Position numbers and translations under genes: made by a program
Notes under the pieces: generated by a model
Databases searched by the model: none
What the model was told of the DNA's origin: nothing
The model's input: only the letters and a program-made list of their open reading frames with translations
Shown: positions 1,031-35,952 of the stretch, one piece after another
Position numbering within the stretch: the first letter of the stretch is position 1
Layout: every line of letters begins with the position of its first letter
Assembly: GCA_944323115.1 (NCBI GenBank)
Contig: CALURG010000081.1
Coordinates: forward strand, 1-36,507
Source of the DNA: Candidatus Gastranaerophilales bacterium
GTDB lineage: Bacteria; Cyanobacteriota; Vampirovibrionia; Gastranaerophilales; Gastranaerophilaceae
Direction of reading: 5' to 3'
DNA length: 36,507 bases

Positions 1031-1104
1031 CGGTAAAATAAAAAGGGCAATGATAATCACTGCCCGTGTCTGGAATTAAGAATAGTTGGAAGTATGAAAA
1101 AGAT
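1031..1104 (-). ncRNA. Putative small RNA, copy 1 (paired with 19025-19098)
   Basis: Read on the minus strand, TATAAT (1116-1111) would be a -10 box with transcription starting near 1104. The transcript ends at a hairpin (1065-1045, 9-bp stem with one A.C mismatch, loop of 3) followed directly by TTTTTATTTTA. That is a textbook intrinsic terminator in this orientation only. The same sequence, almost unchanged, occurs at 19025-19098. There is no open reading frame of useful size inside it. The exact 5' end is uncertain because no strong -35 is visible. A conserved block at 1141-1159 lies at the same distance upstream in both copies. Confidence 0.5.
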
Positions 1105-1160
1105 TTATTGATTATATTTAACGTAAAATATAATTTGGAGACAATTAGCCATCTTTCTAC
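1041..1160. repeat. Dispersed repeat of about 120 bp, copy 1
   Basis: 1041-1130 is nearly identical to 19035-19124, and 1141-1159 is identical to 19135-19153. The roughly ten bases in between differ, but the spacing is the same. Weaker similarity continues to about 1183. From 1184 to 1377 I see only AT-rich sequence with no gene. Confidence 0.8.
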
Positions 1161-4946: not shown

Positions 4947-5588
4947 ATGAAAAAACTTAAAGCTTTCAATATGGTAGAAATAATGATTGTAATTTGTCTG
5001 TTAATTACAACGGTGATACTTTGTATTCCGACAATATTCAACAATTCCAAACAGGCAAAAATAATTTCCGCATGGAAAAAAAGCTATGCGGAGATGCAGT
5101 CAAACTTTGAAGTTTTTAATGTCAGCGACAGAAACAAAGTTGAAGCTGTCTGCCAAAGCAGAGAAATTAAAGAAAAAGAGAAAGAAATTTTTAAAATAAT
5201 CAGTCCTTACTTAAATGTCGATTTAAATAAAAATACTTCTTCTTTGAAATTTTATCATTACAAATTTAAAAACAATGCACAGGTTTCTATGCAGTCCATT
5301 GTTTTTACGAGATTTTTTGCTTTTCAAGAAGGCGGAAGTATTGTCGGGTTTAAGTGGCTGGATTGCAATTGCAGCAGTACAAAACCTTGTGCAACAGTTT
5401 TGTTTGATATGAACGGAACACAAAAACCGAACAGAATAGGCAAAGACATTTTTGCAATTTATATTTATAAAAATCAAATTGAAGCATTTGGCTCAAAACT
5501 TTCAAATGAAGAACTGCAAAGAGACTGCAACAGCCACTCAAGCGGGATGAACTGTTCCGAATACTATTTAAGAGGAGGAAGGTTCTAA
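4947..5588 (+). CDS. Type IV pilin-like / pseudopilin protein
   Basis: A 213-residue protein with a class III prepilin N-terminus: short basic leader MKKLKA, then F7 as first mature residue (A|F site instead of the usual G|F), glutamate at mature position 5 (E11) and a hydrophobic helix to about residue 28. Such proteins are processed by a prepilin peptidase and assembled into pili or a type II secretion pseudopilus. The C-terminal half contains D154-x-NGxxxPNxxGxD167, which also occurs in the pilin at 24251, and several cysteines (C140, C142, C148, C194, C203) that could form disulphides. ATG 4947 is supported by GAGAG upstream. The last 55 bases of shared sequence recur inverted downstream of recF. 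No pilus assembly genes are nearby. Confidence 0.8.
   Translation: MKKLKAFNMVEIMIVICLLITTVILCIPTIFNNSKQAKIISAWKKSYAEMQSNFEVFNVSDRNKVEAVCQSREIKEKEKEIFKIISPYLNVDLNKNTSSLKFYHYKFKNNAQVSMQSIVFTRFFAFQEGGSIVGFKWLDCNCSSTKPCATVLFDMNGTQKPNRIGKDIFAIYIYKNQIEAFGSKLSNEELQRDCNSHSSGMNCSEYYLRGGRF
5500..5554. repeat. 55-bp inverted repeat, left arm
   Basis: This segment inside the 3' end of the pilin-like gene is the exact reverse complement of 6971-7025. The two arms flank recF, about 1.4 kb apart. Similarity continues outward in the right arm with third-position changes only plus one deleted base (see the remnant at 6938-7036). Confidence 0.9.
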
Positions 5589-18267: not shown

Positions 18268-18969
18268 ATGACAAAAACAAATATACTTATAGTCGAAGAT
18301 CATGCTCTTACACGATTCGGGTTGAAAACCGCATTTTCGATAATGCCGGAGAATAAAGCTGCCGATTATGTCGGAAAAATTTTTGAAGCACCAAATGCAA
18401 AAAAATGTTTTGAAATAATAGAAAAAGAAAAAATCAATGTTGTTATTATGGACTTGGGCCTGCCTGACATAAACGGAATTGAAGCAACTAAGATTATAAA
18501 ATCAAAGCATCCGTCTGTTAAAGTTGTAGTTTTGTCCTCTCATGAAAAAGAAGAAGATGTGATAAAAGCTATCAAAGCAGGTGCTTGTGCATATTGTACA
18601 AAAGATGTTGACCAGGACAAACTTGTTGATATCGTGGCATCTGTGGTAAAAGGTGCGGCTTGGTTCGACCCGAAGATTGCACAATATGTCCTAAACGCCG
18701 CTGCATCACCGTCGGAAATCAAGGCAGCGGAGGAAATCGTAGTTGAACAAAAAAGTGAAGATTCAAAAAATACTGATTTCAATCTGACTTCCAGAGAAAA
18801 ACAGGTCTTAAAACTTATTGTTGACGGGCAGACAAATTCTGAAATATCAAAAAATCTTGATTTGAGTGTAAATACGGTGAAAGCACATGTCTGCAATATT
18901 TTGCAGAAGTTGTCCGTGAATGACAGAACGCAAGCTGCGATAAAAGCGATAAAATGTAATATATTCTAA
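18268..18969 (+). CDS. NarL/FixJ-type response regulator
   Basis: A 233-residue two-component regulator. The receiver domain (about 1-125) has E10-D11, phosphoacceptor D62 (VVIMDLGLPDING), S90 and K112 (YCTKD). After a linker of about 45 residues comes a LuxR-type helix-turn-helix (172-225, LTSREKQVLKLI ... SVNTVKAHVCNILQKL). It should bind DNA when phosphorylated. ATG 18268 has GGG seven bases upstream and lies 14 bases after the TPR gene, so the three genes are one operon. No histidine kinase is in the window; the kinase must be elsewhere or the regulator works without one. The second copy of the putative small RNA lies just downstream on the other strand. Confidence 0.92.
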   Translation: MTKTNILIVEDHALTRFGLKTAFSIMPENKAADYVGKIFEAPNAKKCFEIIEKEKINVVIMDLGLPDINGIEATKIIKSKHPSVKVVVLSSHEKEEDVIKAIKAGACAYCTKDVDQDKLVDIVASVVKGAAWFDPKIAQYVLNAAASPSEIKAAEEIVVEQKSEDSKNTDFNLTSREKQVLKLIVDGQTNSEISKNLDLSVNTVKAHVCNILQKLSVNDRTQAAIKAIKCNIF

Positions 18970-19024: not shown

Positions 19025-19098
19025 TTTTAAAAAATAAAGGGCAATGACAATCATTGCCCGTGTCTGGAATTAAGAATAGTTGGAAGTATGAAAAAGAT
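19025..19098 (-). ncRNA. Putative small RNA, copy 2 (paired with 1031-1104)
   Basis: On the minus strand TATAAT (19110-19105) could be a -10 box, with transcription starting near 19098. The end is a perfect 9-bp hairpin (19059-19039, loop of 3) followed by TTTATTTTTTAAA, an intrinsic terminator. The stem position that is an A.C mismatch in copy 1 is an A-T pair here, so the structure holds. TTGAAA at 19135-19130 may serve as -35, with a 19-base spacer. The space between the response regulator (18969) and ftsY (19255) holds no protein gene. Confidence 0.5.
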
Positions 19099-19153
19099 TT
19101 ATTGATTATATTTAACGAAAAATAAGCCTTTTCAACAATTAGCCATCTTTCTA
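19035..19153. repeat. Dispersed repeat of about 120 bp, copy 2
   Basis: Near-identical to 1041-1159, including the outer block 19135-19153 (ACAATTAGCCATCTTTCTA) at exactly the same distance from the rest. The two copies sit 18 kb apart in the same orientation, each downstream of a plus-strand gene. Confidence 0.8.
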
Positions 19154-24250: not shown

Positions 24251-24892
24251 ATGAATAAAAAATCTGCATTCACATTGGCTGAAGCACTTCTGGCATTAAC
24301 AATGATTGGGGTAATTGCAGCAATGACGATACCCGGTCTTAGAGAATATTCTCAAGAGCTTGAATATGTTGCATCCGCAAAGAAATCTTATTCTGTTGCT
24401 CAGGCTGCTACTACTACACTGGAGGCGACTTATGGTGATTCAAAATGGTGGAATTGGAGCAGTACAAAACAGGTAAATGACAGATACAAAACTGTTATGA
24501 ACCAAGCTGATTTTGACTATTCATATGATATTACATATTTGGACGGACAAGCTTTTGAAACGGTAAGCAATACAAACTGGTTTCAAACTACTGACGGCAT
24601 GATTTGGAGAACAAAAACGTATACAAACACAAAGGGTGCCTATGGGGCAATTTATGTGGATACAAACGGTGAAAACCTTCCAAATGTTGTAGGCGTCGAT
24701 GTTATGGGGTTTGTTGTGACAAACGATGGCGTGTATCCTTTTGATGACGGCTTGCATGATGACAATTCAGAATGGGGTTGCACTTATTACGTAATCCAAA
24801 AGGGCAAGATGCCTTGGATTAATAATCCTGCGTATACCAGCTGTGCGAATGCATCTAATGAGTTGAAAGCATCTGCCGGCTCTAAACCATAA
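24251..24892 (+). CDS. Type IV pilin-like / pseudopilin protein
   Basis: A 213-residue protein with prepilin N-terminus: MNKKSA then F7 (A|F cleavage), glutamate at mature position 5 (E11) and a hydrophobic helix to about residue 29 that ends in a proline. The C-terminal domain has D137-x-NGxxxPNxxGxD150, shared with the pilin at 4947, and two cysteines (C177, C198). The middle is rich in Trp and Tyr (SKWWNWS). GAGAGGATTTTAAG precedes the ATG. It stands between the HDOD gene and a ROK kinase without assembly genes, which suggests scattered minor pilins or pseudopilins served by one machine elsewhere. Confidence 0.8.
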   Translation: MNKKSAFTLAEALLALTMIGVIAAMTIPGLREYSQELEYVASAKKSYSVAQAATTTLEATYGDSKWWNWSSTKQVNDRYKTVMNQADFDYSYDITYLDGQAFETVSNTNWFQTTDGMIWRTKTYTNTKGAYGAIYVDTNGENLPNVVGVDVMGFVVTNDGVYPFDDGLHDDNSEWGCTYYVIQKGKMPWINNPAYTSCANASNELKASAGSKP

Positions 24893-30204: not shown

Positions 30205-33200
30205 TTATTCATCAATTGTGAAATCAGGAGCACCGAACATACCTTCAATTTCTTCCAATATAGCGGAAGGTTTGCGGGCATTGTTCTTTTGTGCGGCTCT
30301 TCTTTGAGCTTCTTTGTCCTTCTCTTCGGAAGCGTGAGTCAAGTGGTAGTAACCTGTACCGGCAGGAATCAATCTACCGATGATTACGTTTTCCTTAAGA
30401 CCTCTCAACATATCTTTCTTGCCGTCTACAGCTGCTTCTGTCAGGATTCTTGTAGTTTCCTGGAATGAAGCTGCTGAGATGAAGCTTTCTGTATTCAAAG
30501 AAGCCTTTGTGATACCGAGAAGCACAGGTTCATATGTAGCAGGCTGGCCTCCTGTTTCTTCTACCGCTTTGTTTTCTATTTCCAATGATTGAATTTCTAC
30601 CAGTTCACCGGGAAGAAGTTTTGTATCACCGGATTCTACGACTTTAACTTTCTTAGTCATTTGACGAACAATGATTTCAACGTGCTTGTCAGCAATTTCT
30701 ACACCTTGTGAGCGGTAAACTCTCTGTACTTCGTCTACAAGGTACTGCTGAGCAGCTTCAATACCGTTCAATCTGATAACATCGTGCGGGTTCAACGGAC
30801 CGCTGGTCAAAGGCTGGCCAACATGGATTTTTTGTTTGTCCTGAACAATGATGTTTGAATCAATTGGATATTTGATTTCTGTTCTGCCATTTTCGTTTAC
30901 GAGATAAAGTCTCGGTACATCGTCTTCGATTTCGATTTCAGCAACTGCATCAAATTCTGCAAGTATAGCTGAATCTTTCGGTTTACGACCTTCAAGAAGT
31001 TCTTCAACTCTCGGAAGACCCTGAACGATGTCACCTGTTTTTTGTCTTTCAAATACAAGGTTTGCAAGCATATCGCCTCTGAGTACAAGAGAACCGGATT
31101 CTACCTGCAACATTGTACCGGGACTGATTAAGTACGGACGTCCGATACGAACGGTTACTGAATCTTTGCCCGCAGCAACAATTTTACCTGAAGTCGGTGA
31201 TGTTTCTCCGCTTTCTGAAATTACTCCGTCGCGTCTTACAAAGTCGCCTTCTTTAACAACAGGTTTTGTTTTGAGCTTTATTGTTTGTTCAACATTGTCA
31301 GAAATCAAGAGTAATCTTCTCAGATCTTCTTTGTCTGATTTTATGCTTGCAATACCGTCGTTAACGGCAAGTACCTGAGTTTTTGCAACAGGCTCTTTCG
31401 GTGCAATAGTCTGGCCGTCTTCAACAAGCAATTCTGTTTGAAGAGAAGATTTATTTGTACCTTCAACTTCACGTCTTACAATCAATGTTTCAAGTACAAC
31501 AACCTTTAATGCATTGTCTTTTGTCATTTCAACCATACCTTTTAAATGGCTCAAATAACCTTGCATTTGAAGAACAAGACTTGTTCTTGTCAAAGTAGCA
31601 CCGTCAAGGTTTCTTACTCTCGCACCGTCTTTATACTGAAGCTGTGTAACAGGAACGATGCTGATAGCTTCATCTGTACTTTCAAATTCAATACTTACTG
31701 ATTTGGGTTTGATATCAAACTGTTGTACCGGTCTGATAAGTATTTGTACAGGTTTATTAGCAATAGCATCTTCGTCCAGAGAAGTTACATCTATTTCTTC
31801 ATCAAGATCATCTATTTCTAAATTGTCGTTGTCAGACTCTAAAATTGTAACAATTGAAGTTTGTTTAGCTTTTATTTTTCCTGCAATAACAGTGCCGGCT
31901 TCAACAACTTCGCCTTCTTCAACTTTGAGGTCGCCGATTGAATCCAATGTGTGGATTTCACCGGGTCTTACAACAACTTCGTGAATAATATCATTGAATT
32001 CTTTGATTTCGACAATACCGTCAATGTGGGTATAAAGGTCTTTTACAACTTCCGTACCGGCAGTAACAAATGTATTGTTTTCAACCATTTTCAATGTAAC
32101 ATCTTTACTGATTTGATGTACTTCTTCAGGGATAAAGATAACGGAACCTGGTTTTGTGATAATTTGGTTGTCATCAACTTCAATACCCTGATATCTGATT
32201 TCACCTGATGAAGAAACTGCATATTCGTCATCAATCAGCTCTGCTATAATCATTCCGTTTTCAACAGAAGTATCAGCAGGAGATTTTACAATATATTTTT
32301 CACCTGTTGATTCAACTGTCCAGAATTGTTCTTTCTTTGTTGTTTCAAAAGTCGCATTTGAAGGGGCAATTGAAGCAATTACAATTGTCAATTCTTTACC
32401 TTGAACAATTTTCTTAATCTTTTTGCCTTCAAATTTAACTTCTTCCACTACCAGATTTTCACCAACTCTAACTTCACCGCCGTGTTCAGAAGAGATGTGA
32501 GTTTCTGCAAGTTTTTCACCGGTTTTGATTTTTTGGCCGTCTTTAACAAGAATTTTTGAACCGCCGGGCAGGTTATAAACGTCACCGCCTAATACCCATA
32601 CAATACCGTTTTTGTTTGCAGTTCTTGAAACGTTGCCCTGTCTGTCTTTCTTTTCATCGGCAACAAAATCTTCAAAGAATACTTCACCTGACAAATCAGA
32701 GTTGATATCTTTTGTAGCTTTTTCTGTCAAACGGCTGCCGTCTCCCGATGAAGCCGGTTCAAACTCTGCTATCTGGTCGCCTTTTTTGAGTTTCATTCCG
32801 TTTACGACAAACATTTTTGCACCTGTCGGAATGTGGTATTTTCTGGTCATTTTGGCACCTTTAACTTCAAGGTCGCCTTCTTGAATATTGACCTGAACAA
32901 TATCACCGTGACGTGTTCTCATTTCTTTTGTTTTAAGTTTTGAGACAACTTCACCGTCAATATCGGCATCAATATGCTTCATAGCACCTGAACCTTTGAA
33001 TACACCGCCTGTGTGGAATGTTCTCATTGTAAGCTGTGTACCGGGTTCACCGATTGACTGAGCGGCAATAATACCGATTGCTTCACCAACATCAACCATT
33101 TTTTGTGTGGTCATTGCCCAGCCGTAGCATTTGCGGCATACACCGTATTCCAAAGCACAGGTCAATGCTGAACGGACTTTGAGTTCATGAATTTCAATAG

Positions 33201-34044
33201 AATCGATTTTCTTAATGTCTTCTCTGTCCATTGTTGTACCGGCTTTTACAAGCACATTGCCGTCAGCATCTTTAATATCTTCAGCTATTGTTCTTCCTAA
33301 AAGTCTGTCTTTTAGAGGAACAACAATTTTTTCACCATCACGAATATCAGTCATTGTGATTGATTTTGTCGTGTGGCAGTCATCTTCTCTAATGATTACA
33401 TCCTGTGCTACGTCAACAAGACGTCTTGTTAAGTAACCTGAGTCAGCTGTTTTCAACGCTGTATCTACAAGACCTTTACGTGCACCGTATGAGGAGATGA
33501 TGTATTCAGTAACTGACAAACCTTCTTTAAAGTTTGATTTAATCGGCAAGTCGATGATTTGTCCCTGTGCGTCTGCCATCAAACCACGCATACCTACAAG
33601 CTGTGATACCTGTGATAAGTTACCTCTTGCACCTGAGAAAGCCATCATGTATACCGGATTCAGTCTGTCAAAGTTTTCAACTACCTGTTCTGTTAACTTA
33701 GCTGTTGTTTCAGACCAAGTGTCGATAACTTTTGTATATCTTTCTACTTCCGTAATTTCACCTTTTAAATAACGGTTTGTAGATTTGTCAATTTCTGCTT
33801 CTGCTTCGGCCAAAAGTTCTTTTTTCTCAGGCGGTACACTCAAATCGCTGATTGAAATTGTTGTGCCTGACAATGTTGCATACTTATAGCCTAAGTTTTT
33901 CAAGCTGTTTGCTAGGCTTGCTGCTTTAGAACCGCCGTACTCAAGATATACCTGAGCGAGAAGGTTGTTCAATGCTTTTTTGTTCATTACTTGGTTAATG
34001 AACTCCATTGTTTTTTTATGATGTTGTTGAAGTAATGTATCCAT
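30205..34044 (-). CDS. rpoC2: RNA polymerase subunit beta'' (cyanobacterial RpoC2)
   Basis: C-terminal half of the split beta' subunit, 1279 residues. The start MDTLLQQHHKKTMEFINQVMNK corresponds to the secondary-channel region. The bridge helix is about 188-220 (RKGLVDTALKTADSGYLTRRL). The second zinc site is C223, C296, C303 and C306 (ALEYGVCRKCYGW). The trigger loop begins at SIGEPGTQLTMRTFHTGG (330-347) and is interrupted by an insertion of about 650 residues rich in sandwich-barrel hybrid motif-like beta repeats. It resumes near 1005 with QGLPRVEELLEGRKPK. Such an SI3 insertion and the gene split are marks of the cyanobacterial lineage. AGGGAAG precedes the ATG at some distance. Confidence 0.97.
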   Translation of the reverse strand: MDTLLQQHHKKTMEFINQVMNKKALNNLLAQVYLEYGGSKAASLANSLKNLGYKYATLSGTTISISDLSVPPEKKELLAEAEAEIDKSTNRYLKGEITEVERYTKVIDTWSETTAKLTEQVVENFDRLNPVYMMAFSGARGNLSQVSQLVGMRGLMADAQGQIIDLPIKSNFKEGLSVTEYIISSYGARKGLVDTALKTADSGYLTRRLVDVAQDVIIREDDCHTTKSITMTDIRDGEKIVVPLKDRLLGRTIAEDIKDADGNVLVKAGTTMDREDIKKIDSIEIHELKVRSALTCALEYGVCRKCYGWAMTTQKMVDVGEAIGIIAAQSIGEPGTQLTMRTFHTGGVFKGSGAMKHIDADIDGEVVSKLKTKEMRTRHGDIVQVNIQEGDLEVKGAKMTRKYHIPTGAKMFVVNGMKLKKGDQIAEFEPASSGDGSRLTEKATKDINSDLSGEVFFEDFVADEKKDRQGNVSRTANKNGIVWVLGGDVYNLPGGSKILVKDGQKIKTGEKLAETHISSEHGGEVRVGENLVVEEVKFEGKKIKKIVQGKELTIVIASIAPSNATFETTKKEQFWTVESTGEKYIVKSPADTSVENGMIIAELIDDEYAVSSSGEIRYQGIEVDDNQIITKPGSVIFIPEEVHQISKDVTLKMVENNTFVTAGTEVVKDLYTHIDGIVEIKEFNDIIHEVVVRPGEIHTLDSIGDLKVEEGEVVEAGTVIAGKIKAKQTSIVTILESDNDNLEIDDLDEEIDVTSLDEDAIANKPVQILIRPVQQFDIKPKSVSIEFESTDEAISIVPVTQLQYKDGARVRNLDGATLTRTSLVLQMQGYLSHLKGMVEMTKDNALKVVVLETLIVRREVEGTNKSSLQTELLVEDGQTIAPKEPVAKTQVLAVNDGIASIKSDKEDLRRLLLISDNVEQTIKLKTKPVVKEGDFVRRDGVISESGETSPTSGKIVAAGKDSVTVRIGRPYLISPGTMLQVESGSLVLRGDMLANLVFERQKTGDIVQGLPRVEELLEGRKPKDSAILAEFDAVAEIEIEDDVPRLYLVNENGRTEIKYPIDSNIIVQDKQKIHVGQPLTSGPLNPHDVIRLNGIEAAQQYLVDEVQRVYRSQGVEIADKHVEIIVRQMTKKVKVVESGDTKLLPGELVEIQSLEIENKAVEETGGQPATYEPVLLGITKASLNTESFISAASFQETTRILTEAAVDGKKDMLRGLKENVIIGRLIPAGTGYYHLTHASEEKDKEAQRRAAQKNNARKPSAILEEIEGMFGAPDFTIDE

Positions 34045-34156
34045 ATTTTCTTTTCTTCCCTTAGTTTGTTATGTACTTCTGAGGAGTTTGTGTTGTTTGG
34101 TTTTGTCTTGAAATACTGACTACCACTCAAAAAGATATTTAATCTTTTTTCGGCTG

Positions 34157-34191
34157 AGTGCCGGAGTAACGTCCGGCTACGCATAGGCACT
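34157..34191. repeat. Nested palindrome in the rpoC1-rpoC2 spacer
   Basis: The 186-base spacer 34045-34230 contains AGTGCC (34157-34162) pairing with GGCACT (34186-34191) and, nested in it, GCCGGA (34160-34165) with TCCGGC (34172-34177). The surrounding 34150-34250 is clearly more GC-rich than the flanking genes. The structure could be a dispersed repeat or an RNA processing site. A short minus-strand frame here (33987-34208) is not a believable gene. Confidence 0.5.
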
Positions 34192-34230
34192 GGGTTCGTT
34201 TCACTCACACGGCGTGCCTGTCAGATTTCG

Positions 34231-35952
<1,722 letters not shown>

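Follow-up and report, generated by a model that had tools for sequence, protein, structure and literature searches.

The window, the whole stretch of 36,507 nucleotides that was analysed, comes from the 1.88-Mb draft genome of a Candidatus Gastranaerophilales bacterium. The order belongs, according to the taxonomy file, to Candidatus Melainabacteria, which are non-photosynthetic relatives of cyanobacteria and common in the gut. In the window, two ORFs make up RNA polymerase beta' (30205-35949, with Rpb1 domains 1-3 and 3-5), and such a split gene, typical of cyanobacteria, fits this placement. Two similar intergenic elements, both on the minus strand, are found at 1034-1159 (copy 1) and 19028-19153 (copy 2), where the original prediction had located them from the letters alone. 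They share 90% identity over 126 nt (E 3.4e-43), which is far above chance. The same genome holds a third, more diverged member (G000:C79:13436-13513) and relatives carry one to five copies, so that a family of two members, as it was conceived at the outset, is too narrow.

The two elements are composed of the same parts. A putative activator-type site occupies 1142-1159 in copy 1 and 19136-19153 in copy 2; its sequence, TAGAAAGATGGCTAATTG, obtained by direct reading and own-genome match, is identical in the two copies and departs by two mismatches from the consensus, TASCCRNNYGGSTA followed by ATTG. The -10 box TATAAT lies at 1111-1116 in copy 1, with no recognisable -35 box, and, by comparison, at 19105-19110 in copy 2. 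A 19-nt block, TAGAAAGATGGCTAATTGT, is identical in both copies and stands at an equal distance upstream, as predicted: in each, 25 nt separate its terminal TAATTG from TATAAT. Then comes a 32-nt core (1072-1103 and 19066-19097), identical in the two copies in the alignment and also delimited by comparison in copy 1 and by pattern search in copy 2, at which the RNA is predicted to begin. Each element ends in an intrinsic terminator identified by folding, at 1034-1065 in copy 1 (hairpin 1065-1045, T-run 1044-1034) and at 19028-19059 in copy 2 (hairpin 19059-19039, T-run 19038-19028), with a 9-bp hairpin and a 3-nt loop before the T-run. The succession of TATAAT, conserved unstructured stretch and hairpin with U-tract described for each copy is thus present in both.

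Each of the predicted 82-nt RNAs has a folding energy of -14.1 kcal/mol, to which only the hairpin contributes (z of -5.1 and -3.7, respectively, relative to shuffles). In these folds the core is unpaired in both copies and no 5' stem-loop is predicted; in folds of 129-130 nt, which include the promoter sequence, the core is partly paired. One stem position that differs between the copies had been read as a mismatch in copy 1 that keeps the fold. The fold is kept, but the supposed mismatch is a G-U wobble in the RNA, against A-U in copy 2, and both stems are fully paired. A coding role was set aside by eye, since, read in the RNA sense, the core has no ATG, GTG or TTG, and the alignment has no codon-like variation.

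The neighbours of the elements form several groups when contexts are compared. In the window's genus the element lies, by our own reading of the sequences, close to kdsC-like and sugar-phosphate-isomerase-like genes, and elsewhere close to aspartate kinase or peptidyl-tRNA hydrolase-like genes. Copy 1 is adjoined by an RNase Y gene, a relative of which adjoins the element or is found close by in four other loci (L157, L163, L166 and L171). Copy 2 is flanked by an ftsY-like gene (SRP54 GTPase domain) and by a gene for a response regulator of the NarL/LuxR type (18268-18969, plus strand, convergent with copy 2; Pfam Response_reg and GerE); neither of these two adjoining genes reappears in the other contexts compared, while the third gene upstream of copy 2 is the immediate neighbour of an element in L065, L124, L152 and L169. 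In 124 of 189 contexts the next gene downstream is convergent, and in 39 of the 189 an ORF in the same direction begins within 150 nt downstream, so that the element is mostly free-standing; a cis-acting leader or riboswitch was rejected on gene orientation. Two copies lie 3 kb apart in genome G018 (L036, 4922-5132 and 7884-8094), with the same core and terminator, and are likely the product of a recent duplication.

Distribution and conserved parts of the family

Blastn matched 71 of 99 genomes, the own one included: 58 of the 60 from the window's family, here f1 (the misses being G025 and G052), 12 of the 22 from the rest of the order, among which G074 matched weakly, and one of the 17 from the rest of the class, also weakly. 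When 289 genomes of the class were searched with the core pattern, allowing three mismatches, 191 matched, each at least 90% complete; these are all 188 genomes of f1 and three of the five from the rest of the order, with no match in the 96 class genomes outside the order. A draw of 117 genomes from the phylum gave matches in 48, all in f1, and none in the 69 genomes outside it. The number of copies per genome ranges from one to five, G205 having the maximum. Another family of the order, f3, appears to lack the RNA, as judged from ten genomes, where nothing was found beyond the weak blastn match of G074 and where the model search gave nothing convincing. An exact-pattern scan of the GTDB collection returned at least 112 stretches; the named matches among the 80 listed are to Candidatus Gastranaerophilales, Candidatus Scatousia, entries labelled cyanobacterium and one bin labelled Acinetobacter, which is taken to be mislabelled.

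Throughout the family the succession of parts is the same. The palindromic site comes first, then TATAAT, in most cases at a distance of exactly 25 nt, then the 32-nt core and last the intrinsic terminator. The consensus of the core is TCTTTTTCATACTTCCA[A/G]CTATTCTTAATTCC. In 225 partly redundant locus records (1.66 Mb), matches to it fall into two groups, with 226 at zero to two mismatches and three at five to seven (one with an altered 3' part, two with an inserted base), none at eight, and the background starting at nine. The elements unique in sequence number 206, of which 109 come from the blastn-found set, and 105 of these 109 are within one mismatch of the A form of the core. When columns were counted on 106 of the 109, leaving out three with more than two mismatches, 29 of the 32 positions were invariant and two differed in one copy each; the single freely varying position carries A in 54 copies and G in 52, and an A immediately precedes the core in 100% of them. 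These values are an upper estimate of conservation, since blastn favours similar copies, and the 112 GTDB stretches came from an exact pattern. The phylum search, in which up to three mismatches were allowed, listed nearly only exact cores, with five copies altered in the last two bases. Most of the families sampled within the order thus have the core in near-invariant form.

Copies with changed last bases of the core are found at G171:C4, G185:C6, G159:C5, G159:C12 and G201:C7, and in L110 the promoter looks decayed. All of these may be pseudogenes, or those with altered cores may reflect a looser 3' edge of the core.

The promoter was surveyed in 199 elements with 90 nt of upstream sequence. 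TATAAT is perfect in 144 of them, has one mismatch in 45 and two in 10, and the gap from the -10 box to the core is 3-7 nt in 166. The upstream site is present with at most one mismatch to GG[GC]TAATTG in 122 of the 199, compared with none of 199 mononucleotide-shuffled sequences; among the 189 elements having the site at three mismatches or fewer, 145 place it exactly 25 nt from the -10 box. In full, the site comprises a palindrome of 14 bp, TASCCRNNYGGSTA, with ATTG after it; the palindrome's centre would fall near -48, and it presumably resembles a NarL-type site. Because no -35 box is recognisable in the promoters, an activator is the natural inference. In 2.8 Mb of partly redundant loci, the site (two mismatches or fewer) is combined with a -10 box at 24-26 nt in 131 places that have the core and in two that lack it; the reversed motif gave 0 occurrences there and six other spacings gave 5. 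The palindrome by itself precedes histidine kinase genes (HisKA and HATPase_c), near the centre of the locus, in three of 21 loci without the sRNA (L320, L322 and L329); in nine of the 21 the locus centre is inside an ORF. This arrangement hints at two-component control of the sRNA and suggests that the sRNA and sensor kinases could share one regulator. The response regulator encoded at 18268-18969 is a possible representative of the class of the activator, named here by class only.

At the 3' end, it is the structure that is conserved. A hairpin with a folding energy of -6 or lower and a T-run is found in 201 of 204 elements, two of the 206 with short downstream sequence having been left out, as against 7 of 204 mononucleotide-shuffled ones, and the hairpins are of 172 distinct sequences. 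Turnover of the terminator sequence is also directly visible in the alignment of 71 copies, and turnover with maintenance of the structure argues for selection for a transcript end. On this MAFFT alignment of 71 copies RNAalifold placed no common pair, as the hairpins differ in position and length and are consequently not aligned column by column. The covariance model built from 71 of the 96 listed reference copies (R1) is thus sequence-only, and it is because this alignment gave no pair that we argue for a kept structure from independent folding and not from a count of pairs. A model search of relatives had been proposed along with the original prediction: the family is indeed present in relatives, but R1 contains no base pairs and found nothing convincing in the 18 genomes without a strong blastn match (best E 0.003 over 26 positions).

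Complementarity between the core and messenger RNAs

Pairing of the core with start regions depends on the null model chosen. With mononucleotide shuffles, 430 of 2580 starts paired at -14 or lower compared with 270 ± 60 expected, and none of 40 shuffles did as well; a smaller set of 643 starts gave no start-site pairing signal with the same kind of shuffle. This preference disappeared under dinucleotide shuffles once five genes overlapping an element had been removed: for the remaining 2575 genes, 24 shuffles gave z -0.74 for the region -17 to +17 and +0.33 for -34 to -1, and 11 of 80 shuffles were as good or better. In the region +1 to +34, the 2575 genes have 77 sites with an energy not above -14 kcal/mol compared with 52 ± 10, above all 24 dinucleotide shuffles and with a mean z of -2.3, a weak and modest sign of pairing. 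Of 145 gene clusters, 6 have a z below -2 (5.2 expected); one cluster of 6 reaches z -4.2, past the 5% point of the shuffle minima (-3.9), with a mean energy of only -10.5.

No conserved near-perfect complement of either half of the core (18-mers) is found among the matches listed. Totals of 18-mer complements, own copies included and G010 apart, are 1.0-3.2 times those of the backwards control, and genomes lacking the RNA give similar figures (20 against 8 in G061, 17 against 6 in G067); a further search returned small numbers only. The excess in G010 was rejected, 45 of its 66 matches belonging to an unrelated interspersed repeat. This repeat, which contains AGTTGACAATATGAAAAA, is present in L258 and L260 and at another 43 sites in G010, in several cases at the end of a contig, and is probably a mobile element that has nothing to do with the sRNA.

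A narrower version of pairing, in which the seed would block translation of exported and envelope proteins, starts from the core itself, where CUUUUUCAU complements AUG-AAA-AAG (Met-Lys-Lys) and is followed by ACUUCC, which is anti-Shine-Dalgarno-like. Among 20,000 dinucleotide-shuffled cores, 4.3% have a loose complement of an AUG-AAA-AAG-type start and 0.12% have both parts in order. Genes starting with Met-Lys-Lys (n = 132) pair better than in any of 80 dinucleotide shuffles, and signal-peptide-like genes (n = 336) better than in all but one of the 80; the latter make up 23% of the top 100 pairing genes as opposed to 12.5%, a share reached by none of the 80 shuffles. In G070, which had no part in suggesting this version apart from the 10-kb sRNA locus L100 (an overlap of about 0.7 kb), none of 100 shuffles was as good for 13 Met-Lys-Lys starts and three of 100 for signal-peptide genes. 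Against these figures, both the juxtaposition in the core and the signal-peptide bias were noticed after the fact, and enrichment is not clear in the top 50 pairing genes (10 of 80 shuffles) or in the top 40 of G070 (0.17 versus 0.13, 19 of 100 shuffles). Moreover, the bias is found in G083, which lacks the RNA: the difference between signal-peptide and other genes is matched by two of 100 shuffles, and the top-40 share, 0.23 versus 0.10, by one of 100. Although G083 is an imperfect control, its start windows having a G+C content of 0.46 compared with 0.27-0.30, the bias is thus a property of the sequence and no proof of selected targets. The complement of AUG-AAA-AAG beside ACUUCC, having been noticed after the fact, is kept as a lead only, and we regard blocking of exported-protein translation as rather unlikely.

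Two ORFs of the window (4947-5588 and 24251-24892) encode prepilin-like N-termini, MVEIMIVICLL and FTLAEALLALTMIGVIAAMT, without a Pfam match, and a loosely similar motif is present in 26 of the 2575 genes of the loci studied. For these 26 genes, 8 of 80 shuffles paired as well as the core. The Hfq model PF17209 matched none of 30 genomes; it recovered Hfq in 5 of 14 named genomes in a control search, and a divergent Hfq may escape it.

Comparison with known small RNAs and proposed mode of action

Rfam release 15 gave no match at the gathering cut-off in the window, and the weak matches near copy 1 are far from it (SorY, 19.7 bits for a cut-off of 111; snoZ155, 18.3 for 43), which bears out the statement that the sequence belongs to no named RNA family. 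Pieces of 15 letters of the element sequence had no match in the papers searched, and none of the papers found there, judged from titles and abstract openings, describes a small RNA in Melainabacteria, Gastranaerophilales or Vampirovibrionia. By the layout of their sequence signals, the elements are free-standing genes with their own promoter and intrinsic terminator, as is general for trans-acting sRNAs. Enterobacterial sibling sRNAs of the OmrA/OmrB type are Hfq-dependent, have a conserved shared seed at the 5' end and a 3' terminator, and are under two-component control; the new family is like them in the predicted 5' seed shared by siblings and the 3' terminator, the comparison of sequence being that of the Rfam scan.

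The nearest RNA in kind, by analogy, is Yfr1 of cyanobacteria, in which two stem-loops surround an unpaired stretch carrying ACUCCUCACAC (PMC2190773); Yfr10 and Yfr2 are also described in cyanobacteria (PMC6778093). The new RNA resembles Yfr1 and Yfr10 in being short, with a 3' GC hairpin and U-tail (here in 201 of 204) and an ultraconserved unpaired motif, and in being almost universal in its own group, and they come from a sister lineage (PMC2190773, PMC6778093). It differs from Yfr1 by the 5' stem-loop, which is not predicted in the 82-nt RNA, where the 32-nt core comes first, and by the motif, CTCCTCAC being found in none of the 206 elements (PMC2190773). The nearest in logic, again by analogy, would be LhrC1-5 of Listeria, which is present in several copies, depends on LisRK and carries CU-rich pairing sites, with a cell-wall protein mRNA as target (PMC4132741). 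Sibling copies in one genome and pyrimidine-rich pairing sites, putative in the new RNA, are common to both families, and while the promoters of LhrC1-5 depend on a two-component system, the new family has a palindrome at fixed spacing that also stands before histidine kinase genes in three of 21 loci. What sets LhrC apart is its three CU-rich sites, of which one lies in a stem-loop and another in the terminator (PMC4132741).

From these signals, and with strong comparative support as transcription units, the elements very probably constitute an apparently undescribed small-RNA gene family of a known kind, and the "conserved RNA with its own regulatory site" of the original prediction is well matched by a near-invariant core, a structure-keeping terminator and an upstream palindrome at fixed spacing. 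The comparisons establish the family, its invariance, the arrangement of promoter, core and terminator, and its distribution; transcription, the activator and pairing as mode of action are what we infer from sequence. Transcription of each element would proceed along the minus strand, and its promoter, which has a -10 box but lacks a -35 box, would be turned on by a dimeric activator that occupies the palindrome roughly 48 bp ahead of the start site. An RNA of about 65-80 nt would run from the core, or a few bases before it, to the hairpin and U-tract; because its 5' end is predicted at or just before the core, this RNA would consist of a single-stranded seed with a terminator behind it. The core would pair in trans with mRNAs as a 5' seed, the hairpin would both terminate and protect the RNA, and the several near-identical copies would function as siblings. 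That the family acts in this way, as an activator-controlled sRNA pairing in trans through its 5' core, seems to us probable.

An RNA that acts without pairing, the core being a single-stranded site for a conserved RNA-binding protein, which the RNA might sequester, or for a structural partner, would explain why the core barely varies across families, as an invariant protein would lock the sequence, and is in keeping with complementarity that could not show targets. However, a non-repetitive stretch of 32 unpaired nucleotides is long for a single protein to bind, and the sole freely variable position alternates between A and G, both of which pair with U; we hold this reading to be quite unlikely. 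Far less credit is due to a non-coding, MITE-like mobile repeat that would carry a promoter and a terminator incidentally. The gene neighbourhood does differ between copies, and just outside copy 1 lies a direct repeat of 9 bp (minus strand, TACAAAAAG, 1168-1160 and 1028-1020), which could be a target-site duplication. Its upstream half, however, falls within the A-rich sequence that commonly precedes the site, and in the stretch examined of L006 the downstream half is present without the upstream one; the repeat is possibly an insertion trace or a chance occurrence in A-rich sequence. The longest word common to the flanks of copy 2 is 6 bp. Many copies with target-site duplications had been named as the mark of a mobile repeat, but genomes contain only one to five, an exact 29-mer has no match in viral contigs, several groups of elements have common neighbours and conservation is restricted to the functional parts, all of which makes this origin very improbable. 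A conserved DNA site, serving for example replication or chromosome organisation, would account for 32 nearly invariant intergenic base pairs, but would need neither the -10 box before them nor the structure-keeping terminator after them that nearly all copies possess, and appears the most improbable of all.

Within the favoured reading, pairing in trans by an activator-controlled sRNA, a bolder form can be formulated: an Hfq-independent, two-component-controlled global regulator, whose core is frozen by the need to pair simultaneously with the Shine-Dalgarno, AUG and Lys-Lys parts of many exported-protein mRNAs. We consider it unlikely. If it were true, the family would be the first order-wide regulatory RNA of Melainabacteria, an envelope-stress sRNA parallel but unrelated to Yfr1 and LhrC. 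With an unpaired 32-nt core that hardly changes and a promoter layout of its own, the family can serve directly as a probe in metatranscriptomes and is well suited to asking what holds a single-stranded RNA sequence invariant for so long.
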